Part shown: positions 41,696 to 64,000 of the stretch, one piece after another
Layout of the letters: the number at the start of each line of letters is the position of its first letter
How positions within the stretch are numbered: position 1 is the first letter of the stretch
Assembly (NCBI RefSeq): GCF_021202945.1
Contig: NZ_JAJOYR010000002.1
Span: 291,777 to 355,776, forward strand
Length of the DNA: 64,000 nt
Reading direction: 5' to 3'
Source of the DNA: Stenotrophomonas sp. SY1
GTDB lineage: Bacteria > Pseudomonadota > Gammaproteobacteria > Xanthomonadales > Xanthomonadaceae
Program-made: the position numbers and the translations under genes
Notes under the pieces: generated by a model
The model's database searches: none
What the model saw: the letters and a program-made list of their open reading frames with translations, nothing else
What the model was told of the DNA's origin: nothing

Positions 41696-42946
41696 TCAGG
41701 CCCCGGCCATCCACTTCAGCATCAGGCCGGTCATGTAGGCGATCACGGTGCCGGTGGCGTAACCCACCGTGCCGAGCAGCACGCCCACCGGTGCCAACGT
41801 CGGATGGAACGCGGCGGCCACCACGGGTGCCGATGCAGCCGCGCCGATGTTGCCCTGCGAACCAATGGCAAAGAAGAACAGCGGCGTGCGCAGCATGCGG
41901 CTTACCACGTACAGCAGCCCGATATGCACGCCCATCCAGATCGCGCCCAACGCGAACAGCCACGGCCGCTCCAGCAGCGCCAGCAGGTCCATCTGCATGC
42001 CGATGCAGGCGATCAGGAAATACAGGAACAACGTGCCGATCTTCGACGCGCCCGCCGCTTCCAGATTGCGCGCCCGGGTAAAGCTCAACAGCAACCCGGC
42101 AAGCGTGGACAGCATCACCACCCACACGAACGAAGAGTTCAACGAAGCCTTGGCAGCCCAGCTAACGTTGTCACCGAACCACGCTGCCAAGGGCACTGCC
42201 AATGCGTGCGCCAGCCCAACCACGCCCAGGCCGACGCCGACGATCACCATCAGATCGGTCAGGCTCGGATTGCGCGCACTCTTGGCTTCGTACTCGGCGA
42301 TGCGACGCTTCATGTCGTCGATGGCCGAGGTATCGGCGCCGCTGCGGGCATCGATGATCTGCGAACGCCCGGCCAGCCACAGCAGCACCGCCATCCACAG
42401 GCTGGCGCAGGCCACATCGACCACCGCGAACTGGCCGAAGGTGGTGGCATCGACGTTGAAGGTTTCGCGCATGGCGGCCATGTTGGCGCCGCCGCCGATC
42501 CAGCTGCCCGCCAATGCGGCCATGCCGGCCCAGGTGTCGCCGGCAACGGTTTCCGGGTGGATCAGCTTCATCACCTGGAAGGACACCGCCGCACCGAGCA
42601 CGATGCCCACCGTGCCGGTGACGAACATGATCAGCAGCTTCGGCCCGAGACGGGCGATGCCCTTCAGATCAATGGATAGCGTCAGCAGCACCAAAGCGGC
42701 CGGCAGCAGCACGTCACGGGCGATCGGGTTGTAGAGCTTGGTGCCGTGGCCGTCGATCAGGCCGGTGGTGTTGTAGATGGCCGGAATGAAGTAGCACAGC
42801 AGCAGCGCTGGCACCCAGGTGAAAACCTTTTTCCAGAACGGGGTTGGCCCGCTGGCCAACCAGAAGATCAATGCCAGTGTCGCGGCGATCAGGCCAAGGC
42901 CGACGATGTCATTGGTGATCAGAGCGGTGTTGCTTTCGGTCGGCAT
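41696..42946 (-). CDS. DUF819 family membrane protein (first copy)
   Basis: A 416-residue YjcL-like integral membrane protein with about ten to twelve hydrophobic segments. Conserved pieces: LLLCYFIPAIYNTTGLI, LLTLSIDLKGIARLG, AALAGSWIGGGANMAAM. Function of the family is unknown; transport is assumed from topology. It is a close paralogue of the next gene upstream, aligning along its whole length. A terminator-like hairpin stands 22 bases before its start codon. Confidence 0.88.
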   Translation of the reverse strand: MPTESNTALITNDIVGLGLIAATLALIFWLASGPTPFWKKVFTWVPALLLCYFIPAIYNTTGLIDGHGTKLYNPIARDVLLPAALVLLTLSIDLKGIARLGPKLLIMFVTGTVGIVLGAAVSFQVMKLIHPETVAGDTWAGMAALAGSWIGGGANMAAMRETFNVDATTFGQFAVVDVACASLWMAVLLWLAGRSQIIDARSGADTSAIDDMKRRIAEYEAKSARNPSLTDLMVIVGVGLGVVGLAHALAVPLAAWFGDNVSWAAKASLNSSFVWVVMLSTLAGLLLSFTRARNLEAAGASKIGTLFLYFLIACIGMQMDLLALLERPWLFALGAIWMGVHIGLLYVVSRMLRTPLFFFAIGSQGNIGAAASAPVVAAAFHPTLAPVGVLLGTVGYATGTVIAYMTGLMLKWMAGA

Positions 42947-43256: not shown

Positions 43257-44510
43257 TCAACCCGCCCCAGCCATCGCCCGCAATGCGATACCGACGACGT
43301 AAGCCGCACCGGTTCCCACCGCATAACCCAGCGTACCCAGCAGCACGCCCACCGGCGCCAAGGCCGGATGGAAGGCCGTGGCGAGTACCGGGGCCGAAGC
43401 CGGGCCACCGATATTGCTCTGCGAGGCAATGGCGAAATAGAAGAACGGCACGCGCAGCAGCTTGCCGACAAACCACAGCAGCACGATATGCACGCCAATC
43501 CAGATCACGCCCAGCGCGAACAACCAGGGCTTCTCCAGCAACGCCAGTAGATCCATCTGCATGCCGATGCAGGCGATCAGGAAGTACAGGAACATCGAGC
43601 CCCACTTTGATGCGCCCACACCTTCCAAGCTGCGCGCGCGGGTGAAGCTCAGGCCCAGGCCGATGAAGGTGGCCAGCAACACCACCCACACGAACGGCTT
43701 GTCCAGGCTGACCGACGAGGACCAACTGAAGTTGGCACCAAACCAGGCCGACAACGGGCCGGCCAAACCATGTGCCAATGCAACCGTACCGAAGGCCACG
43801 CCGCCCATCACCATCAGATCACCCAGCGCAGGGATCCGTGCATGCTGGGCCTGGTAGCTGGCCACGCGGTCGCGCAGTTCGTCCAGCGCCGTGGTGTCGG
43901 CACCGCTGTGCTTGTCCAACGCAGGTGCGCGCGAAGCGAAGAAGATCAGCACCGCCATCCACACGTAGCCCACGCCGACATCGACCACCGCGAACTGGCC
44001 GAACGTGGTGGCATCGACCTCGAAGATTTCCTTCATCGCCAGCATGTTCGCGCCGCCGCCGATCCAACTGCCGGCCAAGGCAGCCATGCCGCCCCAGGTA
44101 TTGCCGGCCACCGTTTCCGGATGGAACCAGGACATCACCTGGAACGCCACCAGCGCGCCGAGCATGATGCTCAGCACCGCCGCCACGTACATGGCCAGCA
44201 TCTTCCAGCCCAGGCCGATGATGCCTTTCAGGTCGATGGACAGCGTCAGCAGCACCAGCGCGGCGGGCAGGAACACGTCGCGGGCGATCGGGTTGTAGAG
44301 CTTGGTGGTTTCACCATCGATCAGGCCGACAGTGTTGTAGACGCCGGGAATGAAGTAGCACAGCAGCAGTGCCGGCACGAAGCTGTAGAACTTCTTCAGC
44401 AGCGGATTGCTGCTGCCCGATGTCCAGAAAATAACGCCCAGCGTGGCGGCGATCAGGCCGAACACGATGATGTCATTGCTGATGAGTGCGCCTGTGGCGG
44501 CTGCCATCAT
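43257..44510 (-). CDS. DUF819 family membrane protein (second copy)
   Basis: 417 residues, highly similar to the adjacent copy: LLLCYFIPGVYNTVGLI, LTLSIDLKGIIGLGWKML, AALAGSWIGGGANMLAMKE and FLYFLIACIGMQMDLLALLEKPWL recur almost unchanged. Clearly a tandem duplication that has had time to diverge. About eleven membrane segments, no known function. Two ATG codons in a row (44510, 44507) are possible starts. Confidence 0.88.
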   Translation of the reverse strand: MMAAATGALISNDIIVFGLIAATLGVIFWTSGSSNPLLKKFYSFVPALLLCYFIPGVYNTVGLIDGETTKLYNPIARDVFLPAALVLLTLSIDLKGIIGLGWKMLAMYVAAVLSIMLGALVAFQVMSWFHPETVAGNTWGGMAALAGSWIGGGANMLAMKEIFEVDATTFGQFAVVDVGVGYVWMAVLIFFASRAPALDKHSGADTTALDELRDRVASYQAQHARIPALGDLMVMGGVAFGTVALAHGLAGPLSAWFGANFSWSSSVSLDKPFVWVVLLATFIGLGLSFTRARSLEGVGASKWGSMFLYFLIACIGMQMDLLALLEKPWLFALGVIWIGVHIVLLWFVGKLLRVPFFYFAIASQSNIGGPASAPVLATAFHPALAPVGVLLGTLGYAVGTGAAYVVGIALRAMAGAG

Positions 44511-49585: not shown

Positions 49586-51349
49586 ATGTCCACCAGCACC
49601 CTTCCCGCCCCCTCCTCCAACGATTTCCTGGGGCACCCGAAGGGTGTCTACGTCTGCTTCTTCACCGAGATGTGGGAGCGCTTCTCCTTCTATGGGATGA
49701 AGGCGCTGCTGTTGCTGTACCTGACCAAGTACCACCTGTTCGGCGACAAGGCCGGGCTGGACCTGCTCGGTGCCTATGGCGGACTGGTGTACTGCATCCC
49801 GGTGTTCGGCGGCATGCTGGCCGACCGTTGGCTGGGCATGCGCAAGGCAGTGGTGTTCGGCGGAGTGCTGCTGGTGCTCGGCCACCTGGGCATGGCCTTC
49901 GAGGGGCACGAGGCGCAACGGGTTGCCGGTGAAGTAGTCCGCGACGAGACCGCGCTGGCGGTGACCTATCTGTCGCTGTCACTGATCATCATGGGCGTGG
50001 GCTTCCTCAAACCCAACATCTCCACCATCGTCGGCAAGCTGTATCCGGAAAACGATCCGCGCCGCGACTCGGGCTTCTCGCTGTTCTACGCCGGCATCAA
50101 CCTCGGGGCGTTGTTCGCCTCACTGGTATGCGGCTTCCTCGGCGAAGCCTACGGCTGGAAGTACGGTTTCGGTGCCGCCGGCATCGGCATGCTGGTTGGT
50201 CTGGGCATGTTCCTGTGGGGCCAGAAGTACCTGCACGGCCATGCCGAACCGCCACAACCGACCGCACTGCGCGAACGCGTGCTCGGCCTGCCGCGCGAAG
50301 GGCTGATCTATGCCGTGGCCGTGGTCGGCGTGCTGCCGGTGGCGGCCTTGATGTGGGCGGCAGCCAACGGCGCGTTCGCACTCGGCGGTGAAATCAGCCT
50401 GGCATTGATGCTGATGATCGTCGTACTCGGCGGCGTGCTGCTGTGGTTTGCCTGGTTCACCGGCACCCACTGCACGCCGGTGCAACGCCAGCAGATGATC
50501 GCGCTGATGGTGCTGATCTTCATGGCGCTGGTGTTCTTCACCCTGTACGAGCAGACCTACGGTTCGTGGGTCACCTTCACCGATCGCCTGCTGACCAAGG
50601 ACCTGGTGCCGTCGCTGGTGATCCGCGAAGGCACGCCGCTGCCGTGGTCGATCATCTCGCTGGTGCTGGCGCCGCTGGGCTTCGTGCTGGCCGCGCGCCT
50701 GTCCGACCGTGATCCCGCTTCGAAAGCACCGCGCACCTTGTTCGCCATCATCGTGATCGCAATGCTGGTGATGCTGGTCCGCGATTGCCTGGTGCTGCCG
50801 CAGACCGCCGGCTCGCTGACCTACCTCGGCGCGTTGTTCCTGGTGTTGCTGGCACCGTTGTTTGCCGCCTTGTGGGCGTGGCTGGACAAGCGCCGGCTCG
50901 ATCCTTCCAAGCCGGTCAAATCCTCTTTCGGGCTGGTGTTCGGCGCACTCTCGTTCGTGCCGTTGGCGCTGGCCGCGCAGCAGGTGGGCGCGACCGGGCA
51001 GATGGCCAGCGTGTGGTGGCTGGTGTTGGCTTACCTGATTCTGGAGATCGGCGAGATGTGTCTGTCGCCGGTCGGCCTTTCCGCCGTGACCCAGCTGGCG
51101 GCACCGCGCGTGGTCAGCCTGATGATGGGCACCTGGTTCCTGGCGACCGCGTTCTCCGAAGCATTGGCGGCGCTGTTCGGCAAGCTCGCTGCGATCGATG
51201 TTCCCGAAGGCGAAGTGATGAACATCGCCGAGGCTGCTGCCCGTTACGAACATCTGTTCTGGCTGCTGATGTGGCTGGGGCTTGGCTGTGCAGTGCTCGC
51301 CCTGCTCGCTTCGCCATGGTTGAAGCGGATGATGCACGGCGTGCGCTGA
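49586..51349 (+). CDS. POT/PTR2 proton-dependent peptide transporter
   Basis: 587 residues, a POT-family di-/tripeptide symporter. EMWERFSFYGMKALLLLYLT contains the ExxERFxYYG motif that couples protons to substrate. GGMLADRWLGMRKAVVFGG and FSLFYAGINLGALFASLVCG are also conserved. The number of hydrophobic segments (about 14) fits the bacterial branch with extra helices. Divergent from the OPT gene, so both import systems may share regulation. Confidence 0.94.
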   Translation: MSTSTLPAPSSNDFLGHPKGVYVCFFTEMWERFSFYGMKALLLLYLTKYHLFGDKAGLDLLGAYGGLVYCIPVFGGMLADRWLGMRKAVVFGGVLLVLGHLGMAFEGHEAQRVAGEVVRDETALAVTYLSLSLIIMGVGFLKPNISTIVGKLYPENDPRRDSGFSLFYAGINLGALFASLVCGFLGEAYGWKYGFGAAGIGMLVGLGMFLWGQKYLHGHAEPPQPTALRERVLGLPREGLIYAVAVVGVLPVAALMWAAANGAFALGGEISLALMLMIVVLGGVLLWFAWFTGTHCTPVQRQQMIALMVLIFMALVFFTLYEQTYGSWVTFTDRLLTKDLVPSLVIREGTPLPWSIISLVLAPLGFVLAARLSDRDPASKAPRTLFAIIVIAMLVMLVRDCLVLPQTAGSLTYLGALFLVLLAPLFAALWAWLDKRRLDPSKPVKSSFGLVFGALSFVPLALAAQQVGATGQMASVWWLVLAYLILEIGEMCLSPVGLSAVTQLAAPRVVSLMMGTWFLATAFSEALAALFGKLAAIDVPEGEVMNIAEAAARYEHLFWLLMWLGLGCAVLALLASPWLKRMMHGVR

Positions 51350-51361
51350 CGCAGCCGCCCA

Positions 51362-51391
51362 CGGCCCGCGACCGATTTCGGTCACGGGCCG
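51362..51391 (+). terminator. Hairpin after the POT gene
   Basis: Stem cggcccgcgaccg/cggtcacgggccg (12 of 13 pairs) with loop attt; no T-run. It lies 12 bases past the stop. Confidence 0.6.
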
Positions 51392-51544
51392 CAACCAACG
51401 CTTCTGCCCGGGGGAGCTACATTTGGCGCCATGCTGGTCTGACTAGGCCAGCGTCGCCCGAAGCGACTTCATCATCACATCGCCAATGCCCCCTGCCCCT
51501 GCATGCTCGCTGCATCTTCACAGCAAGCGGTTGCCGGAGCCTCC

Positions 51545-52207
51545 ATGTCTGATGTGCGCTGGACGTTCCCTGCCATGACCACCGCGTATTCGAGTGGTCC
51601 AACTGCCGCACCGCTACCACCACCGGTACCGGTGCAGATCACCAGCAACGGTTTTCAGTTGCGCACCCTTCGCCAGGCCGATGTCACACCGCGCTTCGTG
51701 GAATGGATCAATGCTCCGGCCATGCGTACCGGCCTGAACCTTTCGCCGCAGGCCATCGACGACACCACGCTGCGCGGTTACATAAACGGCTTCGATGGGC
51801 ATCGAAACCACATGATCGGCATCTTCGACCAGGGGTTGCTGATCGGCTTCTACACGCTGGATGTCAATGCAAAACATCGCGTTGCCACCGTGACCGCTGG
51901 CATCGGCGAGACCGGCTGCGAACATCGGCGCGTTTACTGGGCGACCATCGATGCGCTGATCGATCACTTCTTCATCTATCGCAACATCGACAAGATCACT
52001 GCGCACGTACTCGCACGCAACCGCGCCATGCTGTTCAACTTCATCGACAACGGACGCTTTTTCTTTGAAGCCCGGCTACGCGATGAGTGCCTGGACCAGG
52101 ATGGCCAACGCCACGACGTCCTGATCTTCGCTGCCTTCCACAAGGGCGAGCGTCCCGCTGGATTGCTCTACACCCCGCATCTACAGCGTGCACTCTCCTG
52201 CCCCTGA
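51545..52207 (+). CDS. GNAT-like protein, paralogue of the FAAL-operon GNAT
   Basis: A 220-residue RimJ/RimL-like fold. It begins MSDVRWTFPAMT and shares most of its length with the gene at 57956: DVTPRFVEWINAPAMRTGLNL, NHMIGIFDQGLLIGFYTLDVN, FFFEARLRDECLDQDGQRHDVLIFAAF. The usual GNAT cofactor loop (R/QxxGxG/A) is not visible; the equivalent stretch reads TGCEHRRVYWATID without the glycines. The acyl donor may therefore not be free acetyl-CoA. It stands alone, 217 bases before the autotransporter gene. The prolines at 22-30 form a flexible lead-in. Confidence 0.75.
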   Translation: MSDVRWTFPAMTTAYSSGPTAAPLPPPVPVQITSNGFQLRTLRQADVTPRFVEWINAPAMRTGLNLSPQAIDDTTLRGYINGFDGHRNHMIGIFDQGLLIGFYTLDVNAKHRVATVTAGIGETGCEHRRVYWATIDALIDHFFIYRNIDKITAHVLARNRAMLFNFIDNGRFFFEARLRDECLDQDGQRHDVLIFAAFHKGERPAGLLYTPHLQRALSCP

Positions 52208-52424
52208 TGCCTGCACCTGCGCCCAAGAGGGCTGATCCACGGCTTGCCACTGTGGTTGATGCAGACATAGCGCATCGGCAAATCGTTGATCCGAGCACGC
52301 GCATGCGGCTCGCGACGCAACGTATTCATCCATGTGTATAGACACTTCATTCACGGAGCCCCCCCTCCACTACCGGCTCGGAGTAACCACACGATTCCCA
52401 TAGGGCACCGCCCAAGGAGCAGAC

Positions 52425-55400
52425 ATGGTGCGTTCGACGAAGCCCAGCACGCAGCATTGCAAACGCCCGCGCCGGTGGGGATTGGCCAACAGCATCAGTG
52501 TGGTACTTGCCTCCCAGGCGTTCCTGTTGACTCCGGCAGCGGTGCAGGCACAGAACGCATGGGTGGGCGGAGTCAGCAACGAAATCACGGATCTGGACAA
52601 CTGGGCCGATGGTCAAAGCACCGGGGAAATCGGTGATGCCCTCATCAACGGCAATACGCCGAATCTGCCGGTCTGGACGATTGGCAAACCCTCCGTCTCG
52701 CCCAACTTCAGCGAGACCTATCTGTATGTGAACTCGTTGACCATCGGCGATGGCAGCGGAAGCAACGGCCTGCTGACCGTCAACACGCTCCTCGCTGACA
52801 GCTACCGTCAGGCGCAGTTCTACGTGCAGAGTTCAGGCACTTCGACCCCCATAACGGTAGGTGCTGACGGTGGTACAGGCGTACTGACCTTCAACCTGCA
52901 CAACGGCGTTCCGCAGCAAGGCACCGTCCTGAACATCGAAAGCCGCGGGGAGCAGTCCGGCTTTGTCGTCGGCAAGGGGGCCGGCAGCAGCGGCACGGTC
53001 AGCATCCAGGGGCTTGGCAACAGTCTCTACGCACAGAGCATGTCCAACCCTCTGTCCTCGGGAAAAGTTGTCTGGAACGAGGCAAACCACATCATTGGCA
53101 GTGATGGCGGCACCGGTACGGTCACCGTGCAGGATGCGAGCTGGATAACCCAGCATGGAGCATCAGACCCGGTATCCGGCTATCCGACAGGTTCAACATT
53201 AACCCTGGGAACTGGCAGCGGCAGCGTAGGCAACGTCAACATCCTTGCCGGCGGCAAGCTGCACACCGGCGTCTATCCTTCCCCTGGCTACCGCACCTCC
53301 GATGTCATCGGCGCCGATGGTGGCAATGGTGCCCTTACCGTCTCGGGCGTCAACGCTGAAGGCTATGCCAGCAATGCGAACTTCAGTGGCGGATTGGATA
53401 TCGGCAATGGGCTTGATGCCGTCGGCACCGCCAACGTACTGAGTGGCGGCAAGCTGCTTACCTATGTCGGCGAACAGTCTCTCCACGACCCGGTGACGGG
53501 TGGCTTTGTCACTGCCCCCACCGCGCAGATCGGGCTCGATGGCGGTACAGGTCAAGCGACGGTCTCCGGCTCGGGCTCCATCTGGTATGTCGCTGGCGCG
53601 ACATCGGAGTACAGCAATCGACACATAGACAATGACGGTGTGGACCCGGATGACTCCTCTGAGTACATCTACCCTGTACAGGATGATCTGCTGGACCAGA
53701 CTGTTGGTCACCTGCATGTCGGCGTCTCCGGCACGGGCAGCCTGACCATTGCCGATGGCGGCGTGGTAGCGCTGGGCACCGCCTATCTCGGCAATGTCTA
53801 TGAAACAACGCCAACCGACCAGTACAGCTATTACGGGCTGCTCCAGTTCGACGAAGGCCAGGGCACCTTGTTCCTCGGCGAAACCGCAACCGGCAATGGC
53901 ACGCTCAACATCGGCGCTGCTGCTGGCCAGGCTGCCGCCGCCAGCGGTGAACTGCGTGCGGGAATGATCCAGTTCGGCCCGGGTGCCGGAACCGTGGTGC
54001 TCAACCACACAAACACCGCGTACGTCTTCAGCACACCGCTGGTCGGCAATGGGGTACTTGCCAACCACGCCGGCACTACCTGGCTGCAGCCGCATACACC
54101 GGTGCCGCTGCCCACGCCCCCACCGTCGCCGCAACCGACCGACAACAGCGGTTTCACCGGCACCACCGAGTTGTATGGCGGCACGTTGGGACTGGGCTAC
54201 GCGCTGGCACTGGGCACCAGCGCGGTGCAGGTCAAGGGCAATGCCAAACTGATCTATGCCAACGGCATCGACATCAACAACACGATTGATCTGCAGGCAG
54301 CCAACACGCTGACCACCTCGGTTGCCGATGGCGGCACGGCCACGCAGACCGGCGCGATCTCCGGCACCGGCAATCTGCTCAAGGCCGATGTAGGCACCTT
54401 GGCCCTCACCAGCGCGAACACGTACACCGGTGAGACGACCATCGCCGGCGGCACGCTGGCGTTGAGCGGCGCCGGCAGCATCGCCCAGTCCAGCCGCGTG
54501 GTTGCTGATGGCATCTTCGATATCTCCGCGGCTACCAGCCCGGTGTCGATCCAGCGCCTGGCCGGCAGTGGCACGGTCAACTTCGGCAGCCAGTCGCTGT
54601 CGCTCACTGCTGCGGCCGATACGTTCGCCGGCAATCTGGCCGGCACTGGCGACTTCAACGTGCTTGCCGGCGTGCAGACCCTGAGCGGTGACAGCAGCGC
54701 ATTTGCCGGCAACACCCACGTGCAGGGCGAGTTGTGGGTCAACGGCAGCCTGGGCCTTGCCAGCACGCTTACCACGGTAGACAACGGCGGCCTGCTCGGC
54801 GGCGGTGGCGTGGTCGGCGGTTCGGTGCTGGTCAACGACGGTGTGCTGGTGCCTGGCGCAATCGAATCGGTACCCGGACAACTGCGTATCGGTGGCGACC
54901 TGACCTTGTCGCCGGATGCCACCATGCGATTCCTGTTCGGCCAGGCCGGCGTCCCCGGCGGCGCGTTGAACGACCTGCTCAGTGTTGGTGGCAACCTCGT
55001 ACTGGACGGCACCTTGAATGTCACCGAGGCTCCAGGCGGCGCATTCGACCCGGGCATCTACCGCGTGATCGACTACGCAGGCACGCTGGATGACCGTGGC
55101 CTGACCCTGGGCAGCCTGCCCCCCTCGTCCGGAACCGTCACCGTACAGACCAGCGTGGGCCAGCAGGTCAACCTGGTCCTGGTGCCCACGGGCACGCAGG
55201 TCACGCTCAGCTTCTGGGACGGCGCAGCCGGGCCCAAGGACGATGGCCAGATCAATGGCGGCAACGGCATCTGGCAGAACAGCACCGGCAACAACAACTG
55301 GACCAACACCGACGGAACCATCAACGCAGCCTTCGCCGATGGCAGCTTTGCAGTGTTCACCGGCGCGCCCGGGGATGTGACCGTGGACGGCAGCCTGGGC

Positions 55401-57464
55401 GGGATCGAAGTCGTCGGCATGCAGTTCGCCAGCGGCGGCTACGTGGTGGGTGGTGACGCCATCACCCTGCTCGGCCCCGAGGCCATTGTGCGCGTTGGCG
55501 CCAGTACGTTGGGCCGCAGGGAATTCCTGACCCGCGGCCCGGAACACCAGGCCACCATCAACGCGGTACTGGCCGGCGATGCACGCCTGGTCAAAAGTGA
55601 TGCCGGCACGCTGGTCCTCAACGGCAACAACACCTACAGCGGTGGCACCTACATCCGCAACGGCCTGGTGCAGATCGCCTCCGACCAGGCACTGGGTGCC
55701 AGCACTGGTGCACTGGCGTTCGACTTCGGTGCGCTTCGCAGTACCGCCGACATCACCTCGGCACGTGCCGTCAGCGTGGAAACCAGCGCCACCTTCCTGA
55801 CCGCGGACGCCACCACGCTGACACTGACCGGTGCACTCACCGGCAGCGGCGCGTTGGTCAAGGGCGGTGGCGGCGTCCTGCACCTGACCGGCACCAGCAG
55901 CTTGTCCGGTGCCACGCAGGTGGCTTCCGGCATGCTGAAGGTCGACGGCAGCCTGGCCGACTCGGCGGTGACCGTGGACTACTCGGCCATCCTGGCCGGC
56001 AACGGCAGCGTGGGCAGCACCGTCGTGCGCAGTGGCGGCATCATCAGCCCGGGCAGCTCGATCGGCACGCTCACCATCAACGGCGACTACACACAGGAAG
56101 CCGGCTCCCGCTACATCGTCGAAGTAGACCCGACATCCAGCGCATCCGACCTGATCGCCGCCAGCGGCGCGGCAACGCTCGGCAACGGTGCATTGCTGCA
56201 GGTGGTACGCACCAACGACGCGCTGTATCGGGCCGGCACCCGCTACACCGTGCTCAGCGCCGACGGCGGCGTCAGCGGCGAGTTCACTGCGCAGGGCGAG
56301 CTGGCGGTATCGCCGTTCCTGACCCTGACCGACACCTACGACGCCAACCACGCCTATCTGGAAGTCCTGCAAACCGGGCAACTGACCGACGTGGACTGCA
56401 CGCCCAACGCCAACGCCGCTGCAGGCGGTGCGGGTGGACTGGCACAGGATGGCGACCTGAATACCGCCCTGCTCAACCAGCTCGACAACGCCGCCGTCTG
56501 CGACGCGCTGGGCCAGCTGACCGGCGAAATCTACGCCTCGCTGCGGGGCGCCCAGCTGGAAGACAGCCGCTTCGTGCGCGAAGCCATCGGTAACCGCGTG
56601 CGCGGCGCCAACATTGGCCCGCATGAGGAAACGGTCGATGACGGCGTGTGGGCGCATGCGTTCGGGTCGTGGGGCCGCTTTGACCACGGCAGCGACACCC
56701 AGGTGTTGAGCCGCGACATCAGCGGCCTGTTCGTCGGTGCCGACTGGTCGCTGTCCGACGCCTGGCGCATCGGCCTGCTGGGCGGCTTCAGCAACTCCGA
56801 TTTCGACGTGAACCGGTGGCGCTCCTCGGCCGACAGCGACGACAAGCACCTGGCCCTGTACACCGGCGGTGAATGGGACAACGGCTTCGGCTTCCATGGC
56901 GGCCTGGCCTACGCCTGGCACGACATCGAGATCAAGCGCCAGGTGGACTTCGCCCATTTCAGCGACCAACTGCGCGCCGACTACAAGGCCACTACCCGCC
57001 AGGTGTTCACCGAAGCCAACTACCGCATGCAGATGGCGCACATGGTGCTGCAGCCGTTCCTCAACGTGGCCTATGTGCAGTTGGACAGCGATGGCTTCAG
57101 CGAACACGGCGGTGAAGCCGCATTGTCCGCGCGCAGCCAGGACAACGACCTGACCTTCGCCACGCTGGGCATGCGCAGCCTGCGCCAGTTCGAACTCAGC
57201 GGCGGCGGCAACATCACGCTGCGCGCGATGGCCGGTTGGCGGCATGTGTTTGGCGACCGCAGCCCGAACGTGGACCTGGGCTTCATCAGCGGCGGCGCCT
57301 TCACCATCCAAGGCGTGCCGCTGGCGCGCCAGGCGCTGGCAGCCGAACTGGGCGTGGAAGCCTCACCGCGAACCAACCTGCGCCTGGGCCTGACCTACTC
57401 CGGCCAACTCGGCGGCGGCATCGATGACCATGGTGGCAAGGCCTTCGTGGAATGGAAGTTCTGA
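52425..57464 (+). CDS. Large autotransporter (type Va secretion)
   Basis: 1679 residues. A signal peptide ends near residue 42 (TPAAVQA). The passenger is a long beta-helix rich in Gly, Thr and Ser. It includes repeated autotransporter-associated strands such as KADVGTLALTSANTYTGETT, KSDAGTLVLNGNNTYSGGTY and KGGGGVLHLTGTSSLSGATQ. A proline linker (VPLPTPPPSPQPTD) lies at about residue 560. Only two cysteines are seen in the mature part, C1325 and C1359, likely a disulfide next to the beta-barrel domain, which starts around residue 1409 and ends in the outer-membrane signature VEWKF. It would be displayed on the cell surface; adhesion or another extracellular function is inferred. No protease triad seen. 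Flanked by two paralogous GNAT genes. Confidence 0.94.
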   Translation: MVRSTKPSTQHCKRPRRWGLANSISVVLASQAFLLTPAAVQAQNAWVGGVSNEITDLDNWADGQSTGEIGDALINGNTPNLPVWTIGKPSVSPNFSETYLYVNSLTIGDGSGSNGLLTVNTLLADSYRQAQFYVQSSGTSTPITVGADGGTGVLTFNLHNGVPQQGTVLNIESRGEQSGFVVGKGAGSSGTVSIQGLGNSLYAQSMSNPLSSGKVVWNEANHIIGSDGGTGTVTVQDASWITQHGASDPVSGYPTGSTLTLGTGSGSVGNVNILAGGKLHTGVYPSPGYRTSDVIGADGGNGALTVSGVNAEGYASNANFSGGLDIGNGLDAVGTANVLSGGKLLTYVGEQSLHDPVTGGFVTAPTAQIGLDGGTGQATVSGSGSIWYVAGATSEYSNRHIDNDGVDPDDSSEYIYPVQDDLLDQTVGHLHVGVSGTGSLTIADGGVVALGTAYLGNVYETTPTDQYSYYGLLQFDEGQGTLFLGETATGNGTLNIGAAAGQAAAASGELRAGMIQFGPGAGTVVLNHTNTAYVFSTPLVGNGVLANHAGTTWLQPHTPVPLPTPPPSPQPTDNSGFTGTTELYGGTLGLGYALALGTSAVQVKGNAKLIYANGIDINNTIDLQAANTLTTSVADGGTATQTGAISGTGNLLKADVGTLALTSANTYTGETTIAGGTLALSGAGSIAQSSRVVADGIFDISAATSPVSIQRLAGSGTVNFGSQSLSLTAAADTFAGNLAGTGDFNVLAGVQTLSGDSSAFAGNTHVQGELWVNGSLGLASTLTTVDNGGLLGGGGVVGGSVLVNDGVLVPGAIESVPGQLRIGGDLTLSPDATMRFLFGQAGVPGGALNDLLSVGGNLVLDGTLNVTEAPGGAFDPGIYRVIDYAGTLDDRGLTLGSLPPSSGTVTVQTSVGQQVNLVLVPTGTQVTLSFWDGAAGPKDDGQINGGNGIWQNSTGNNNWTNTDGTINAAFADGSFAVFTGAPGDVTVDGSLGGIEVVGMQFASGGYVVGGDAITLLGPEAIVRVGASTLGRREFLTRGPEHQATINAVLAGDARLVKSDAGTLVLNGNNTYSGGTYIRNGLVQIASDQALGASTGALAFDFGALRSTADITSARAVSVETSATFLTADATTLTLTGALTGSGALVKGGGGVLHLTGTSSLSGATQVASGMLKVDGSLADSAVTVDYSAILAGNGSVGSTVVRSGGIISPGSSIGTLTINGDYTQEAGSRYIVEVDPTSSASDLIAASGAATLGNGALLQVVRTNDALYRAGTRYTVLSADGGVSGEFTAQGELAVSPFLTLTDTYDANHAYLEVLQTGQLTDVDCTPNANAAAGGAGGLAQDGDLNTALLNQLDNAAVCDALGQLTGEIYASLRGAQLEDSRFVREAIGNRVRGANIGPHEETVDDGVWAHAFGSWGRFDHGSDTQVLSRDISGLFVGADWSLSDAWRIGLLGGFSNSDFDVNRWRSSADSDDKHLALYTGGEWDNGFGFHGGLAYAWHDIEIKRQVDFAHFSDQLRADYKATTRQVFTEANYRMQMAHMVLQPFLNVAYVQLDSDGFSEHGGEAALSARSQDNDLTFATLGMRSLRQFELSGGGNITLRAMAGWRHVFGDRSPNVDLGFISGGAFTIQGVPLARQALAAELGVEASPRTNLRLGLTYSGQLGGGIDDHGGKAFVEWKF

Positions 57465-57908
57465 GATCGGAAGCCAGAGATCAGCCACCAGCAACGCCAA
57501 GGGCGACAACCATTCTGATCGGCGCCCTTCTCCCGCAGGTGAGAGGGGTAGGAATGGGAGCCGCTTCAGGAAGAGCAGAAAGATGGAAGCCCCAGCACGG
57601 AATCCTCGCCGACCTCCCGGTCACCTCCCCCTACCCACCGGCGCTGCCCGGAGCAACTCTGACCTGCGGATGTGGAGCAAGGCTGCGCCTCGACACCGGG
57701 CAACGCCTGCCTCCAGCGTTCCGTGACCCCACTCCTCGCGCCAGCATTCAAGGCGCGAAGCTGCGATCAAATGAGAGCCTCGCATTCTCCACGTCGCCTT
57801 CACATCCCCCGATCCCATATTCAATTGCATCAGGGGTTGCTGCCCCTCGCTGCACACCGATCTGACAGTCCCAGACCTGCACCATCACATCGCTTCTCAG
57901 TACACGCA
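57465..57908. other. Intergenic region after the autotransporter
   Basis: A gene-free stretch of about 440 bases. A degenerate CT-rich repeat is at 57520-57555 (gcccttctcccgcaggtgag, then aggggtagg), probably serving as the autotransporter terminator. Neither strand has a convincing reading frame. Confidence 0.5.
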
Positions 57909-57924
57909 CCGACACGCGTGTCGG
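57909..57924. promoter_or_regulatory. Perfect 16-bp palindrome upstream of the FAAL operon
   Basis: ccgacacgcgtgtcgg is identical to its own complement. It ends 31 bases before the first ATG of the GNAT-FAAL-ACP-P450 operon, in the place of an operator. Its centre (acacgcgtgt) resembles the centre of the cstA palindrome at 39046. Confidence 0.6.
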
Positions 57925-57955
57925 ATCAGGACACTGGGATGCAACAGGAGGTTCC

Positions 57956-58591
57956 ATGCCCGAAGTGCGTTGGACGTTTCCGCCGATGACCTCGCGCCCG
58001 GCGCATGCCGCCCAGCCATCCCCAGCGGCTGCATCCCCTCCGGTGCAGATAGGCACCCACGGCTTCGTGCTGCGCACGTTGCTGCCCGCCGACGTCACTC
58101 CGCGATTCGTTCAGTGGATCAATGCACCAGCCATGCGTGCCGGCTTGAACCTGGCCCAGTTGAATTTCGATGAAGTGCGCCTGCGTCAGTTCATCGCCTC
58201 CTTCGACGGCCGCCACAACCACATCATCGGCATTTTCGACCAGGAACTACTGGTGGGCTTCTACACCGTTGATGTGAACCTGGCCCACAAGGTTGGCGCG
58301 CTCACGGCCGGCATTGGTGAAGAAGGCTATGCACGCCGCAAGGTTTACTGGAACACCATCGATGCGCTGCTCGATCACTTCTTCGTTTACCGCGAGCTGG
58401 ACAAGATTGTCGCGCGCGTGCTGGCCGGCAACAGCGCCATGCTGTTCAACTTCGTGGACAACAGCCGCTTCTTCTTCGAGGCACGCCTGCGTGAGGAATG
58501 TCTTGGCCAGGATGGCAGGCGCCAGGATGTGTTGGTTTTCGCTGCCTTTCGCGAGGGCGAACGTCCGCAGGGTGTGAGCTACCTTCCGTGA
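57956..58591 (+). CDS. GNAT-like acyltransferase, first gene of the FAAL operon
   Basis: 211 residues, paralogous to the protein at 51545 (same start pattern MPEVRWTFPPMT, same core). A RimJ/RimL-type fold is suggested by FVLRTLLPADVTPRFVQWIN and FFVYRELDKIVARVLAGNSAMLFNFVDN. As in its paralogue, the glycine-rich acetyl-CoA loop is missing (EEGYARRKVYWNTID). Since it is coupled to an acyl-AMP ligase and an acyl carrier protein, it may take its acyl group from that carrier. Strong AGGAGG site four bases before the ATG. Its stop overlaps the next start as GTGA. The function is inferred from context. Confidence 0.78.
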   Translation: MPEVRWTFPPMTSRPAHAAQPSPAAASPPVQIGTHGFVLRTLLPADVTPRFVQWINAPAMRAGLNLAQLNFDEVRLRQFIASFDGRHNHIIGIFDQELLVGFYTVDVNLAHKVGALTAGIGEEGYARRKVYWNTIDALLDHFFVYRELDKIVARVLAGNSAMLFNFVDNSRFFFEARLREECLGQDGRRQDVLVFAAFREGERPQGVSYLP

Positions 58592-60291
58592 GGGATACAC
58601 CCACCCGCAATACCGACCTGGCCTTGCAGCTGGGCGGCTTCCGCAACCTTCGCCACGCGCTCAACTATGCGGCCGACGGCGAAACCGGCATCAACTTCCA
58701 CGACGCCCGCGGCAACCTGCAAACAGCAATGAGCTATAACCAACTGCGCGCCCACGCCTTGGTCGCGGCAACGCAGCTGCGGGCCATCGGCCTGCAACCC
58801 GGGCAGCGGATGGCGGTGATCGCCGACACCAGCGCCGCCTTCCTGGCGCTGTTCTACGGCGCGCAGTACGCCGGTGTCGTGCCGTGCCCGCTGCCTTATC
58901 ACGCATTCCCCGGCGGGCGTGATGCGTACACGGCGCAGCTCTCCGCATTGCTCGCAGCCAGTGGCGCACGTTGGTTGTTCTCACCACGCGCCACGCTCGG
59001 CAGCGCCGAGGCCGCTGCCATGGGGCATCGCGCGCAGGTAATCCCGCTGGAACTGCTTCCCGCGCACAGCACGCAATCACAGGCTCCCGAAGCAGCTGAA
59101 GTCGAGGCGGACATCCCGGCCTACGTCCAGTTTTCCTCCGGCTCCACCGCCACCCCCAAAGGCGTGGTGGTGCGGCAACAGGCTTTGATGGCCAACGTCG
59201 ACGCCATCGCAACGCACGGCCTGCGCATGCATGCCGACGACCGCGCCTGTTCCTGGCTGCCGCTGTATCACGACATGGGGCTGGTCGGCTTCTCGATCGT
59301 GGCGATGTGCGCGCAGCGCAGCGTGGACTACCTTGCGCCACATGCCTTCGCCGCACGGCCGCTGGCCTGGTTGGAACTGATGTCGCGACAACGCACCAGC
59401 ATCGTCTATGCGCCCAGCTTCGCCTGGAAGCTGGCGGCACAACGCTATCAATCAGCGACACCGGACATTGATCTGTCCGCGTTGCGCGTGGCCGGTGTGG
59501 GCGGAGACCAGGTACGCAGCAACGACCTGCACGCCTTCTCCCACGCATTGGCCGCGAGTGGCTTCAGGCATCATGCGTTCCAGCCGAGCTACGGCCTTGC
59601 CGAAGCCACCCTGGCCGTGAGCATGGGCGCGCTGGACGCGCCACCGCGCAGCGATGAAGCACCCGCAGCGGCTGATGGCACGCTGCACCCACGGCAGTTG
59701 CTTGGTTGCGGCAAGCCGTTGCCCGGCATCGATGTCAGCGTGCGCGACAGCGACGGCCATTCGTTGCCCGAACGCAGCATCGGCCACTTGTGGATACGCG
59801 GGCCGAACGTGATGCGCCAGTACCTGCACGCCACCGATGCCGACGCATCACCGCAGACCGATGGCTTCCTCGATACCGGTGACCTGGGCTACCTGCATGA
59901 GGGCGAATTGTTCATCAGCGGACGCGCCAAGGACCTGATTCTGGTACGTGGCCGCAACCTGTGGCCACAGGACATCGAAGCCGCCGCAGCTCAGGCCGCG
60001 GCCTTGGACGTGGCCGATGTCGCAGCCATCGGCGTAGAGCGCGATGGCGAGGAAGCGCTGTTGGTATTGGCCGAATGCGGAAGCGATATCGAACGCCAGC
60101 AGTGCACTCGCGAACAGATCACCGAAGCCCTTGCCACCAGCTTCGGCATCCGCGCCGAAGTGGTGGCACTGCCGCCGCACGCCCTGCCATTCACCACATC
60201 CGGAAAACTGGCGCGCGCACGCGCTAAAGCAATGTATCTCGATGGCTGCTGGCCACCGACCAACGTTTCCCACATGGAGGACATCACTTGA
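58588..60291 (+). CDS. Fatty acyl-AMP ligase (FAAL)
   Basis: A 567-residue adenylating enzyme. It activates a fatty acid as acyl-AMP and passes it to an acyl carrier protein rather than CoA. AMP-binding motifs: YVQFSSGSTATPKGVVV at about 179-195, SWLPLYHDMGLVG, FQPSYGLAEATLAVSMG, and DTGDLGYLHEGELFISGRAKDLILVRGRNLWPQDIE near the end. SWLPxYHDMGL and RGRNxxPQDIE are typical of FAALs rather than acyl-CoA synthetases. The start is GTG at 58588, overlapping the GNAT stop (GTGA). An upstream start would extend antiparallel into GNAT coding sequence without sense. The stop overlaps the ACP start (TTGA). Confidence 0.93.
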   Translation: MRDTPTRNTDLALQLGGFRNLRHALNYAADGETGINFHDARGNLQTAMSYNQLRAHALVAATQLRAIGLQPGQRMAVIADTSAAFLALFYGAQYAGVVPCPLPYHAFPGGRDAYTAQLSALLAASGARWLFSPRATLGSAEAAAMGHRAQVIPLELLPAHSTQSQAPEAAEVEADIPAYVQFSSGSTATPKGVVVRQQALMANVDAIATHGLRMHADDRACSWLPLYHDMGLVGFSIVAMCAQRSVDYLAPHAFAARPLAWLELMSRQRTSIVYAPSFAWKLAAQRYQSATPDIDLSALRVAGVGGDQVRSNDLHAFSHALAASGFRHHAFQPSYGLAEATLAVSMGALDAPPRSDEAPAAADGTLHPRQLLGCGKPLPGIDVSVRDSDGHSLPERSIGHLWIRGPNVMRQYLHATDADASPQTDGFLDTGDLGYLHEGELFISGRAKDLILVRGRNLWPQDIEAAAAQAAALDVADVAAIGVERDGEEALLVLAECGSDIERQQCTREQITEALATSFGIRAEVVALPPHALPFTTSGKLARARAKAMYLDGCWPPTNVSHMEDIT

Positions 60292-60518
60292 CCGCATTGC
60301 TGGAAGCCAAGGAACTTCTTTCCGGCTGTCTGTTCGTGCCTACCGAAAAGATCGGCGACGACGACAAGCTGCAGACCATCAAGGAGTTGGACAGCCTCAG
60401 TTTTGCCAGCATCGTGGTGGAACTGGAAAGCCGCGCCGGGCGTGAAATCGACCCGGTCGACCTGCTGGAGTTGCGCAGCGTGCGCGACGTGGCCGCATTG
60501 CTGGAACGCTATCGGTGA
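60288..60518 (+). CDS. Stand-alone acyl carrier protein
   Basis: A 76-residue acyl carrier domain. The phosphopantetheine attachment motif is DSLSF with S36 in IKELDSLSFASIVVELE. The rest is acidic and helical as in ACPs. The start is TTG, with a good GGAGG eight bases ahead; its bases overlap the FAAL stop (TTGA), and its stop overlaps the P450 start (GTGA). It should receive the acyl chain from the FAAL and present it to the P450 and perhaps to the GNAT. Confidence 0.92.
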   Translation: MTALLEAKELLSGCLFVPTEKIGDDDKLQTIKELDSLSFASIVVELESRAGREIDPVDLLELRSVRDVAALLERYR

Positions 60519-61762
60519 ACCAACCCAGTGACATCTGCAACCGGTTGTACGCGTTGGCTCGCGAGCGCAATGGTCAGGACGTCATGCTCGATATCAATGG
60601 CGTACCGATGCTGGTGCTGCAACGTCATGAGAGCGCCGACCATGTACTGCGTACGCATGCGGCGCACTATCGCAAGGACATGGCCTGGTTTCGCCAGGCC
60701 TTGGGTGCTTCGCGCTTCTGCGAAGAAGGCGAAGCCTGGCGGATACGCCGCAGGATCACCCACGAACACTTCACCCATTTTGACCGAGAACACACCTGCG
60801 CATTGGCAGGCCAGCATGGTGCCCATGCCGTACAGCGGCTACTGGCCGACAGCGCCAAGGGGGCGCAGACAATCGACGACCACGTGCTGCGCACGATGAC
60901 GGTCTCAATACTTGTGGAGAACTTCCTGGGCATTCCGTTCCAGGACACGGGCATTGATCTGGCCCTGATTTCCGAGCTGATGGAATACGGCTCGGCCTAT
61001 TCGTTCGTGCCACCCGGCCGCACCGAAGCCTACTACGCCCAAGGCCTGCGACGACTACCCGGCCTGCGCAGGGAAATCCTGCAGCAGATGCGTGTCCTGC
61101 GCGATGGCAGCCTGCCTACCAGCCCCATGCTGGCCGACATGCTCCGTGCCGACGTGGACCCGGCCAACGACATCGTGCTCGAACACGAGCTGGTCACGTT
61201 CCTTGCGGCCGGCGCGGAAAGCTCCGCCTCCACCGCTGGCTGGGCGTGTTATCTGCTTGCCCGGTATCCGGAAGTGCAGGAGCGCCTGCGCGACCAGGTC
61301 ATGCAGCTCAATCCCGCCGATGGCTGGAATGCATTGACACAATGCACGCCTCTGGAAGACTTCATTTCCGAAGCACTGCGTCTGTTTCCGCCGTCGCCAA
61401 TCATCTCGCGCCAGGCCACGCAAGCCGACCGTATCGGCATTCATCATGTAGACAGCGGCCAGAACCTGTTGATTTCCTTCATCGGCATCGGCCACGACGC
61501 ACACATGCGCGATGACCCGTGGACGCTTGCAGGCACACCCGTCGTGCGCGGCCCTACTGCTGGCAACCGAATGGCCTTCAGTATCGGGCCACGCATCTGC
61601 GGCGGAAAACTGTTCGCCCTGGTTGAACTGATGGGCGCGCTGGCCGCGTTCCTGCGCCATGCGCGGTTTGAACTCACCTGCGACTCCCCCCCGCGCTTCC
61701 ATTGGAAAGCGCAGCTGCTGCGCGAAGGCGGCCATCCAGTGCGGGTGACGCCACTGCACTGA
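60515..61762 (+). CDS. Cytochrome P450
   Basis: A 415-residue heme monooxygenase. The heme cysteine is C362 in FSIGPRICGGK, the helix-K ExxR is EALR, and the oxygen-binding helix-I signature is AGAESS at 232-237, with Ser where Thr is usual. No membrane anchor, so a soluble bacterial type; redox partners are not in the window. Position after an ACP suggests it oxidises an acyl chain held on the carrier protein, as CYP107H1 (BioI) does, but that is inferred. Start GTG at 60515 overlaps the ACP stop. Confidence 0.93.
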   Translation: MNQPSDICNRLYALARERNGQDVMLDINGVPMLVLQRHESADHVLRTHAAHYRKDMAWFRQALGASRFCEEGEAWRIRRRITHEHFTHFDREHTCALAGQHGAHAVQRLLADSAKGAQTIDDHVLRTMTVSILVENFLGIPFQDTGIDLALISELMEYGSAYSFVPPGRTEAYYAQGLRRLPGLRREILQQMRVLRDGSLPTSPMLADMLRADVDPANDIVLEHELVTFLAAGAESSASTAGWACYLLARYPEVQERLRDQVMQLNPADGWNALTQCTPLEDFISEALRLFPPSPIISRQATQADRIGIHHVDSGQNLLISFIGIGHDAHMRDDPWTLAGTPVVRGPTAGNRMAFSIGPRICGGKLFALVELMGALAAFLRHARFELTCDSPPRFHWKAQLLREGGHPVRVTPLH

Positions 61763-61770
61763 GACGTTGC

Positions 61771-61805
61771 CGTTGCACAGCGAAGCAACGCTCCACTGTG
61801 CAACG
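61771..61805. terminator. Hairpin closing the FAAL operon
   Basis: A perfect 10-bp stem, cgttgcacag/ctgtgcaacg, around a 15-base loop. It lies between the P450 gene and the converging S9 peptidase gene. No T-tract, so a probable terminator. Confidence 0.6.
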
Positions 61806-61846
61806 ACCGCTGAGGCTCTCTGCCAAGTCCTACACGGCAGCTCCGG

Positions 61847-63805
61847 TCACTTGGCGGTGGCGCCGCCCAGATGCCGCGACAGGAACGCAAGCAGCTGCGT
61901 GTAGTACTCACGTTGATGTGGCTCGGTATAGAAGCCGTGTCCCTCGGTGCTGTAATACAGCGACTCCACCGGCACACCTGCCTTGCGGAGTGCAGCCTCC
62001 ATCATGCGGCTGTGTTCGATGGGTGCTCTCTCATCTTCGCCGCCGGCCGCCAGAAACACCGGCACCTTGATCTTGTCCGCAAGCCGGTTGGGTGAAACCG
62101 CCGCCAGCGCGGCCTGATCCTCGCCCACCCAGTCCTTGGACCAGTTGCCCAGGCTGCGCCGCGTACGGCCGTCCTCGCGCTGCATCATCGGCAGGTCGTA
62201 AACACCGACATAGCCTGCAGCGCATTGGTAGAGCGTGGGTTCCTTGGCCACCCCCATCAACGCCGCGTAGGCACCATAACTGGCACCGTAAATGCATATC
62301 TTCCCTCCGGCGGTGTGACCTTGCGCCATCGCCCAGCGCGTGGCGTCGGTCACGTCGTCCTGCATCGTGCCGCCCCATTGGCGTGCACCGGCACGTTCGA
62401 ATGCCCAGCCATAGTTGCCCGAACCGCGGTAGTTGACCTGCAACACCGCATAGCCGGCAGAAGCCAGCATCTGCGCGACCCGGTCGTACTGCCATTGGTC
62501 GAAGATGCCGAACGGCCCGCCGTGCGGCATCACCACCATCGGCAAACTGCCGTTGGTGCCGCGCGGCTTGGTGAGGTAGCCATGGATGGTCAGGCCATCA
62601 CGCGCCTGGAAGCTGAAAGGCTCCACTTTCGCGGCCAGCTCCGGGTCAATCCAGCTTCCGCGGCTGACCACATGGTCCACTTTCTTGACCGCCGGCTCGT
62701 ACAGATAGAAGTCGCCAGGGTTCTCGCCCGACCAAACCTTCACAAGCAGCAGCCGCCCGTCCTTGGTGCTGGAGGTGACCGTCACCGATTGCCGAGGAAA
62801 CGCCGCTTCGAGGCTGCGATGCAGCCGCGCCTCCGGCACCGACTCATCGAAGAACAGATTGCGATGCCGGCCATCCATCACCTGCGCACCAATCGGCATG
62901 GACGTGCCGCTGCGAATGATGAGTTCAAAAGGGTCGGCACCCTCGTCATGCAACACCGTCGCGCGAGTGCCAGCAACCGGATCCCACGCCACGATGCGGT
63001 CGGTTGCCTTGTCCTCGCCGCGCACCAGCAGGTAGGCAAGCCGGTTGTCGGCAGAGAAACCCAACGGTAATTCGATGCGACCTGTTGCCACTTGATCATT
63101 GATCAAGCGCCAATCGGTCCCCGCCGCATCGCGGTAGTAGAGCTTGCTGCTGTTGTCCACGTTTTCGCCGACCGCCAAGCGCACTTCACCGCTGTTGTCG
63201 GTGGCAAACCTGGCCCACCGCACCGGTGCCCGCGCGACCGTGATGCGGCGACCACTGTTCACATCCAGCTTCTCCGCGCGGGTGAACGGCTCTTCCGTGC
63301 CCATCGGCCAAACCGAAATCACCACGTTGCTTTCATCAGCAGGCAGCGTATCCACCAGGAACGCCGCGACACTTTCCACCTTCTTCGGCTGGATGCGCGT
63401 ACCAGGACCATTGCCCAGCATGCGGAATCCGACCAACAGTTCTGCCTTGCCTCCGTCGGCGTTGACCGCATAAAGCTCACCGGTTCGCTGCGGCTCGTCC
63501 AACATGCCGAACTTCTCGGCCAGGCCGATCACCACCCGCTCATCGTTGGCCCATTCGAAATCATAGACGTGCCCATTGCGCCCCGGCACGAACGACCCCG
63601 AAGGCTTGTTGCCCTCGCGGGTGAAGATGGTCAGTACGGTCTTGTCCTCAAACGGGACGGTCGCCGCGTAATACTTCCCGCTCGGCGAAATCTTGATGTC
63701 ATTGAAATCATCCTTGCGGATGTACTGCCCCAGATCCACGGCCGCGTGGATATTTCCCGCCATGGCACCAAGCACCAAGGCAATCCCAAGCGTCACTGCC
63801 TTCAT
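61847..63805 (-). CDS. Secreted S9-family prolyl oligopeptidase-like peptidase
   Basis: 652 residues with a signal peptide (VTLGIALVLGAMAGNIHAA). A beta-propeller half comes first, then an alpha/beta hydrolase catalytic half. Catalytic motifs: Ser in YGASYGAYAALMG, Asp in AAGGEDERAPIEH, His in EGHGFYTEPHQ. The HGG oxyanion region is VVMPHGGPFG. Similar in plan to the peptidase at 44866 but from a different subgroup. The start is fixed by the signal peptide (ATG at 63805); an in-frame codon eight positions upstream adds only charged residues. Converges on the FAAL operon. Confidence 0.91.
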   Translation of the reverse strand: MKAVTLGIALVLGAMAGNIHAAVDLGQYIRKDDFNDIKISPSGKYYAATVPFEDKTVLTIFTREGNKPSGSFVPGRNGHVYDFEWANDERVVIGLAEKFGMLDEPQRTGELYAVNADGGKAELLVGFRMLGNGPGTRIQPKKVESVAAFLVDTLPADESNVVISVWPMGTEEPFTRAEKLDVNSGRRITVARAPVRWARFATDNSGEVRLAVGENVDNSSKLYYRDAAGTDWRLINDQVATGRIELPLGFSADNRLAYLLVRGEDKATDRIVAWDPVAGTRATVLHDEGADPFELIIRSGTSMPIGAQVMDGRHRNLFFDESVPEARLHRSLEAAFPRQSVTVTSSTKDGRLLLVKVWSGENPGDFYLYEPAVKKVDHVVSRGSWIDPELAAKVEPFSFQARDGLTIHGYLTKPRGTNGSLPMVVMPHGGPFGIFDQWQYDRVAQMLASAGYAVLQVNYRGSGNYGWAFERAGARQWGGTMQDDVTDATRWAMAQGHTAGGKICIYGASYGAYAALMGVAKEPTLYQCAAGYVGVYDLPMMQREDGRTRRSLGNWSKDWVGEDQAALAAVSPNRLADKIKVPVFLAAGGEDERAPIEHSRMMEAALRKAGVPVESLYYSTEGHGFYTEPHQREYYTQLLAFLSRHLGGATAK

Positions 63806-63940
63806 ATCTCTCCCCAAAGTAACGGACATCCGATCCGTGGCCGGATTCTAGTCTGCTGTCTTCTGGTTTGAGTAGCGGGTGGGCTGCGTGCCAGTGCACG
63901 AGGTGGAAAAGTCGGGTTGGGAACGCAACCTGGGGCTCCG

Positions 63941-64000
63941 CTTGACTACCTTGTCCATGAAATCCGGGGCAGTTCACTCTGACCCCTGTTCTTTTTAAAA
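63941..64000. other. Possible mobile-element edge at the window end
   Basis: The last bases include gaaatccggggcagttcact then ctgacccctgttc and end ttttaaaa. The pattern looks like the end of an IS3-type or other transposable element rather than coding sequence, but the rest lies beyond the window and I could not confirm it. Bases 63806-63940 hold only the peptidase promoter region. Confidence 0.35.

Follow-up and report, generated by a model that had tools for sequence, protein, structure and literature searches.

The 64,000-nucleotide stretch of Stenotrophomonas sp. SY1 analyzed here (contig NZ_JAJOYR010000002.1, positions 291,777 to 355,776; hereafter, the window) contains an autotransporter gene accompanied by genes for two GNAT-type acyltransferases, a fatty acyl-AMP ligase (FAAL), an acyl carrier protein (ACP) and a cytochrome P450, in the order GNAT-A, autotransporter, GNAT-B, FAAL, ACP, P450. 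The host rpoB is 96% identical to that of Stenotrophomonas mori, a member of the same genus in the family Lysobacteraceae. The features of this region, all on the forward (+) strand, are, in window coordinates:

51545-52207, +, GNAT-A, a second RimL-type GNAT of 220 aa (found by protein search with GNAT-B and aligned)
52425-57464, +, classical autotransporter of 1679 aa (PF03797 at residues 1408-1659, PF12951, TIGR01414 and a weak TIGR04393 repeat)
53256-53258, +, codon of passenger lysine K278 in a G-G-K motif, candidate acylation site suggested by lysine conservation
57956-58591, +, GNAT-B, N-acyltransferase of RimL/RimJ/SpeG fold, 211 aa, ATG start (open reading frame and fold of the predicted structure)
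58588-60291, +, FAAL of 567 aa, GTG start (PF00501, NF006624, 3pbk)
60288-60518, +, ACP of 76 aa, TTG start, serine in L-D-S-L (PF00550)
60515-61762, +, cytochrome P450 of 415 aa, GTG start, E286xxR289 and C362 (PF00067)

The four genes from GNAT-B to the P450 had been singled out in an earlier sequence-only reading as a compact operon for a candidate fatty-acyl pathway, and its description of these genes held up: four-base stop/start overlaps are present at all three junctions (GTGA, TTGA and GTGA) at the coordinates given above, and the FAAL, ACP and P450 use the non-ATG starts GTG, TTG and GTG, respectively (for the FAAL, the longest open reading frame opens at 58498, and the GTG start was taken at 58588). 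The assignment of the ligase to the FAAL type was likewise borne out. The protein matches PF00501, passes, narrowly, the curated cut-off of NF006624 'fatty acyl-AMP ligase' (601 vs. 600 bits), and has the E. coli FAAL 3pbk as its best solved relative (E 4e-108). The residues that block the CoA pocket of the E. coli enzyme, W224, M231 and F279 (PMC8460268), are conserved in the window FAAL as W, M and F, and the stretch of the FAAL-specific helix aligns without gaps, both by hand count of the alignment. In the ACP (PF00550, 36.4 bits), the D-S pair that includes the phosphopantetheine serine is invariant in 13/13 aligned ACPs, and in the P450 (PF00067, 122.9 bits), the heme cysteine C362 and the ExxR residues E286 and R289 are invariant in 9/9 sequences, again in agreement with that reading. 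By sequence, the best solved matches of the P450 are the plant enzymes LUTEIN DEFICIENT 5 and carotene epsilon-monooxygenase, followed by CYP4B1 and BM3, at E 8e-19 or weaker.

A profile scan with an alignment of 34 GNATs, run on contigs from one genome per species, identified 14 loci, that is, 15 including the window. Of the 11 assessable loci, 10 (the window, L001-L007, L009 and L010; the exception is L011) have a homologous autotransporter next to the GNAT, and these 10 come from Stenotrophomonas, Dyella, a Lysobacteraceae metagenome-assembled genome (MAG), Saezia, Limnobaculum, Leminorella, Budvicia and Mesorhizobium; in L008, L012, L013 and L014, which start in or just before the GNAT, the upstream side is unassessable. 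The autotransporter is divergent, on the opposite strand, in Saezia (L004), and is in two open reading frames in L003. A FAAL lies 3' of the GNAT in 13 of 14 loci (none in L011 and only a 147-aa piece in L008; L009, the contig of which ends in the GNAT, is excluded from this count), an ACP follows the FAAL in 13/13, and a P450 follows the ACP in 10/13 (absent in L006, L007 and L013; a 152-aa piece in L014). Budvicia pieces make up 4 of the 15 loci and are all cut at or near contig ends, so that L009 may be the other half of L008, L012 or L014; without Budvicia, the counts are 9/10 for the autotransporter, 10/11 for the FAAL, 10/10 for the ACP and 7/10 for the P450. The passengers are mostly 30-50% identical and belong to bacteria of several orders, yet the order is kept. 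The unit, an autotransporter with its own acyl cassette, is conserved and sporadically distributed.

The recurrence of the order GNAT-FAAL-ACP-P450 in other species, for which the sequence-only reading had proposed to search, rules out an arrangement found only here and indicates that the order is more than chance. The candidate pathway of that reading is supported insofar as the block of four genes is conserved, but the operon as described was incomplete, because it left out the most constant neighbour, the upstream autotransporter, and with it the likeliest acyl acceptor. The P450 is part of the block in most loci but is accessory: the lack of a P450 after the ACP in 3/13 loci weakens its standing as an obligatory part. 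In Limnobaculum, a P450 (44% identity) is encoded away from the cassette (G617:C12:166522-167757, in L033), a few kb from two open reading frames matching the window autotransporter; no P450 was found in the Leminorella grimontii genome or in the Methylobacteriaceae MAG, which is incomplete. In Saezia, an SDR open reading frame (L004:8278-9198) overlaps the P450 stop by 4 bases, and its product could oxidize a hydroxyl set by the P450.

The autotransporter-GNAT gap is 17 and 18 bp in two Dyella, so that the autotransporter and the cassette can be one transcript. Among the loci with a resolved FAAL start, the GNAT-FAAL junction is a 4-base overlap in the window, L002 and L007, whereas a spacer of 4 bases is present in L003 and one of 11 bases in L006. 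GNAT-A is 64% identical to GNAT-B, and a search of the host genome revealed no further copy; one autotransporter is flanked by two GNAT paralogues in the window, and three GNATs stand in tandem in Saezia (L004). Budvicia aquatica has GNAT pieces on separate contigs (L008, L009, L012 and L014), with one FAAL of 147 aa and one P450 broken by a stop, and probably carries several copies of the unit, some of them decayed.

Co-occurrence was also assessed by querying ~5.8 billion proteins separately with the GNAT, with passenger residues 30-600 and with the P450 (E <= 1e-60), ~8,000 candidates being scored for each of the latter two. There were 46 matches for the GNAT, at least 44 for the passenger and at least 89 for the P450, on 45, at least 43 and at least 87 contigs, respectively, that are distinct by size. 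Contigs of equal size, which are indirect evidence of the same contig, were common to the GNAT and passenger lists in at least 11 cases, to P450 and GNAT in at least 10, to P450 and passenger in at least 9, to all three in at least 7 and to any two in at least 16 (the P450 match P0093, which has no size, was omitted); with control lists shifted by eight offsets, there was 1 coincidence in 24 comparisons. Among the matches listed, 32/43 passenger contigs and 77/87 P450 contigs had no GNAT contig of equal size, which may reflect either the limits of the GNAT search or true absence. Only 24/45 GNAT contigs are at least 6 kb long, and many of the others are too short for both genes.

The unit is rare. 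In the host family, the GNAT was detected in 3/395 genomes (G388, at E 9e-4 and 29% identity, was left out of this tally, which is therefore 3 and not 4), and the passenger in 2/395 at E <= 1e-20 among the best 3 candidates per genome, both in genomes with the GNAT; in the third GNAT genome (G080, the MAG of L003), the passenger is present only in pieces. The GNAT was found in 2/299 genomes of the order sample and, at E <= 1e-15, in 5/398 and 2/369 genomes of the phylum and class samples, respectively, which, besides the window genome, amount to five distant relatives. Within ~10 kb around these five, BLASTP detected no match to the window autotransporter, ACP or P450, and the sole FAAL match was weak (23%) and 4 kb away (L044), so that the cassette is tied to the core GNAT branch. 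Three of the five relatives (~30% identity; L043:8851-10233, L044:9646-11003 and L045:9802-11429) are convergent to a gene for a small outer-membrane barrel protein (PF13505), the neighbours having been picked by eye and scanned in these three; enzymes of the wider GNAT branch may have outer-membrane proteins as substrates.

The window protein has the architecture of a classical (type Va) autotransporter: a signal peptide (called by eye), a repeat passenger (~residues 40-600), PATR repeats and a C-terminal beta-barrel (PF03797, 210.9 bits, residues 1408-1659). In Mesorhizobium, the last 280 residues, although still matching PF03797, are 17-23% identical to those of the other proteins, whereas the passenger is 29-39% identical; given that the passenger has diverged less than the barrel, it seems that this N-terminal part of the autotransporter is the one that goes with the cassette. 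The only lysine that is invariant among the GNAT-linked passengers is K278 (17/17), which is also the only invariant one in an alignment of 9 sequences (the sets of 17 linked and 20 other passengers omit L003, a fragment, and L005 and L010, duplicates of P0060 and P0066). Another lysine, K199, is conserved in 14/17 linked passengers and is replaced by Asn in the window. Lysine conservation, although thin evidence, points to K278 as the leading candidate for an acylation site.

Neither GNAT-A nor GNAT-B has a Pfam match at the gathering score (GNAT-B vs. Acetyltransf_3, E 0.0077); GNAT relatives from other species pass the PF13302 cut-off (4/4 scanned), and the predicted structure of GNAT-B (pLDDT 84.5) has the RimL/SpeG fold. 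The canonical GNAT CoA loop follows the pattern Q/R-x-x-G-x-G/A. Alignment of GNAT-B to SpeG shows a departure from this pattern: the second glycine of the SpeG loop Q-G-K-G-F-A is kept in 4/34 GNATs, and the last position, Ala in SpeG, is L, Y, F or M in 34/34. The changed loop is the one that binds the CoA pyrophosphate. With the CoA loop degraded, an acyl-ACP donor is plausible for this GNAT, that is, the enzyme may take the acyl chain from the ACP. No RtxC/HlyC family is among the Pfam matches of GNAT-B listed up to E 10, and no RtxC enzyme is among the 50 structural matches listed.

Taken together, these observations make it about an even chance that the locus encodes a self-contained system that puts a fatty-acyl group on a surface autotransporter. 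In such a system, the FAAL would adenylate a free fatty acid and load it onto the co-encoded ACP, the P450, where present, would oxidize the ACP-bound chain, the RimL-fold GNAT would transfer that chain from the ACP onto the not yet exported passenger, much as RTX proteins are acylated by RtxC enzymes, and the barrel would display the lipidated passenger at the surface. Transfer from the ACP to the passenger is suggested by the CoA-pocket blockers of the FAAL, the altered GNAT loop, the likeness to RtxC and the precedent of glycosylation of type V passengers.

Among the known systems, RtxC enzymes acylate lysines of RTX proteins from acyl-ACP and include a GNAT-fold protein without CoA-binding elements (PMC8339906). 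As in the window unit, in RtxC/HlyC a GNAT-fold enzyme is encoded beside an exported protein, there with an acyl-ACP donor and a modified partner lysine (PMC8339906). However, the window GNAT is RimL-type and has a FAAL, an ACP and a P450 in its operon, and its partner is a type V autotransporter, which would be the acylated protein, rather than a type I-secreted RTX protein, none of which was recognized in the unit. Dedicated enzymes that attach sugars to type V passengers in the cytoplasm are known, and some of them are co-transcribed (PMC8151025); glycosylated autotransporters are listed among modified extracellular proteins (PMC10450907). In the BAHT (Aah, TibC) and NGT (HMW1C, EtpC) systems, a dedicated enzyme modifies a type V passenger prior to export, and NGT genes share a transcript with the genes of their substrates (PMC8151025, PMC4358343); these differ from the window unit in that a sugar is attached by a single enzyme and in that the NGT examples with a shared transcript belong to two-partner systems rather than to classical autotransporters. 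Lipid-carrying autotransporters are represented by NalP, SphB1, AlpA and CapA, in which the lipid sits on the N-terminus of the mature passenger (PMC9289746), whereas the window passenger has no Cys at the end of the signal peptide (by eye) and comes with its own cassette. Stand-alone FAAL-ACP starter pairs (e.g., JamA-JamB) and the E. coli FAAL 3pbk share with the window a FAAL with a cognate ACP and conserved CoA-pocket blockers; unlike the window unit as interpreted here, the reviewed pairs feed polyketide or peptide synthases, and autotransporters, GNATs and P450s get no mention in that review (PMC11837247). The window P450 is proposed to act on an ACP-bound acyl substrate, as in the case of CYP107H1, although its best solved matches lie elsewhere. 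CYP107H1 (BioI) is a P450 that acts on acyl-ACP.

Several observations weigh against acylation of the passenger. The folds nearest to the GNAT are those of acetyl-CoA enzymes, some with small-amine substrates, and a SpeG-like fold leaves a small amine open as the acceptor; that the GNAT contacts the passenger and uses acyl-ACP is what we infer. K278 is kept in 14/20 passengers with no known GNAT link and is, therefore, a lead but no proof; it could be a structural residue. The autotransporter and GNAT-B of the window are 491 bp apart, and in the Methylobacteriaceae MAG, locus L011 has a GNAT of this branch (~45%) without an autotransporter or FAAL; a different contig of this MAG (L013) has a FAAL and an ACP along with the terminal part of a GNAT. 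Between 4 and 66 PF03797 matches are present per cassette-bearing genome, so some of the autotransporter-GNAT adjacency could be due to chance. Divergence within the unit largely parallels rpoB distances for all of its genes (7-9 taxa), and after removal of these distances, there was no correlation for GNAT-passenger (partial r 0.06, p 0.36) or GNAT-P450 (0.25, p 0.16); GNAT-FAAL (0.40, p 0.004), FAAL-passenger (0.61, p 0.001), P450-passenger (0.62, p 0.03) and FAAL-P450 (0.76, p within 0.001-0.03) remained correlated. We know of no acylated autotransporter of this kind, and no description of a cassette-type acylated autotransporter, or of this unit, was found among the open-access papers listed, subscription papers not being searchable.

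The main rival explanation, which we consider unlikely, although the most probable of the alternatives, is that the cassette makes a small oxidized N-acyl compound resembling a lipoamino acid or an acyl-polyamine, formed when the GNAT moves the ACP-bound chain onto a soluble amine, with the autotransporter as a co-selected surface partner and not as the substrate. Such a product would be in line with a GNAT fold that is close both to RimL and to the SpeG polyamine acetyltransferases, with the tight coupling of GNAT, FAAL, ACP and P450 as opposed to an autotransporter gap that reaches 491 bp in the window, and with the usual role of FAAL-ACP pairs in starting small-molecule pathways (PMC11837247). 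It could be carried by a transporter: a POT-family gene (PF00854; 49523-51349) lies ~200 bp 5' of GNAT-A, and MFS-like genes (by eye) are found near L004, L005 and L006. However, none of these transporters is constant between the loci (by eye), whereas what recurs beside the cassette is an exported protein whose passenger is conserved, and a small-molecule pathway would not need such a domain next to it.

A split of the locus into two separate jobs, with the GNAT using acetyl-CoA to acetylate the autotransporter or some other protein and the FAAL, ACP and P450 making a fatty product for a different use, appears improbable given the degraded CoA loop, the four-base GNAT-FAAL overlap in three loci and the presence of this gene pair together in 13/14. 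Least probable of all is an autotransporter link that is merely an inherited neighbourhood without function, the whole island being passed on together, since the agreement with rpoB distances and the abundance of autotransporters in these genomes are offset by an order kept across several orders despite passenger divergence and by a rough chance of an autotransporter neighbour of 0.2-2.3% per genome (assuming one gene per kb; the loci are not independent).

Mobile elements contribute little to the picture. On plasmids, the GNAT had one match only (26%) and the P450 none at E <= 1e-60; GNAT-A had none on phages, and 13 pattern matches in viral contigs included no relative, so that carriage on plasmids or phages is weakened by this near-absence. 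Plasmid-borne FAALs that are 41-43% identical had no autotransporter annotated within 6 kb in the two contexts examined, out of 175 plasmid records; the FAAL lies in a sugar/phosphocholine-type cluster in Roseomonas and is without obvious partners in Sphingomonas, which weakens a general FAAL-autotransporter link. In the Roseomonas mucosa plasmid (L057), the FAAL (43%) has a phosphocholine cytidylyltransferase-family gene on one side and an SDR gene on the other, with glycosyltransferase and flippase genes nearby, a setting that looks like surface modification. The DNA of the Leminorella FAAL had no match in E. coli genomes.

Elsewhere in the window, an S9 peptidase gene lies 3' of the P450 on the opposite strand, and two adjoining genes for DUF819 (PF05684) membrane proteins (41696-42946 and 43257-44510, - strand) are probably a tandem duplication. 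The promoter scan found 0 (2.0 expected) and the terminator scan 5 (6.6 expected), and Rfam gave no match in positions 50000-64000.

The five-gene conserved unit appears to be undescribed. Returning to passenger acylation, we tentatively propose, with somewhat less confidence than for such acylation as a whole, that it represents a variant of type V secretion scattered across several orders of Pseudomonadota, in which an autotransporter comes with its own activation, carrier, oxidation and transfer enzymes and its passenger is fatty-acylated on lysine, with a chain that may be oxidized by the P450; this would be the first fatty-acylation system dedicated to autotransporters. If so, surface proteins can bear a tailored lipid that is attached by enzymes encoded alongside them, and acylation would join the modifications that type V passengers are known to receive in the cytoplasm. 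FAALs would then gain a protein-modifying role, and an unusual branch of GNATs would gain an acyl-ACP donor.

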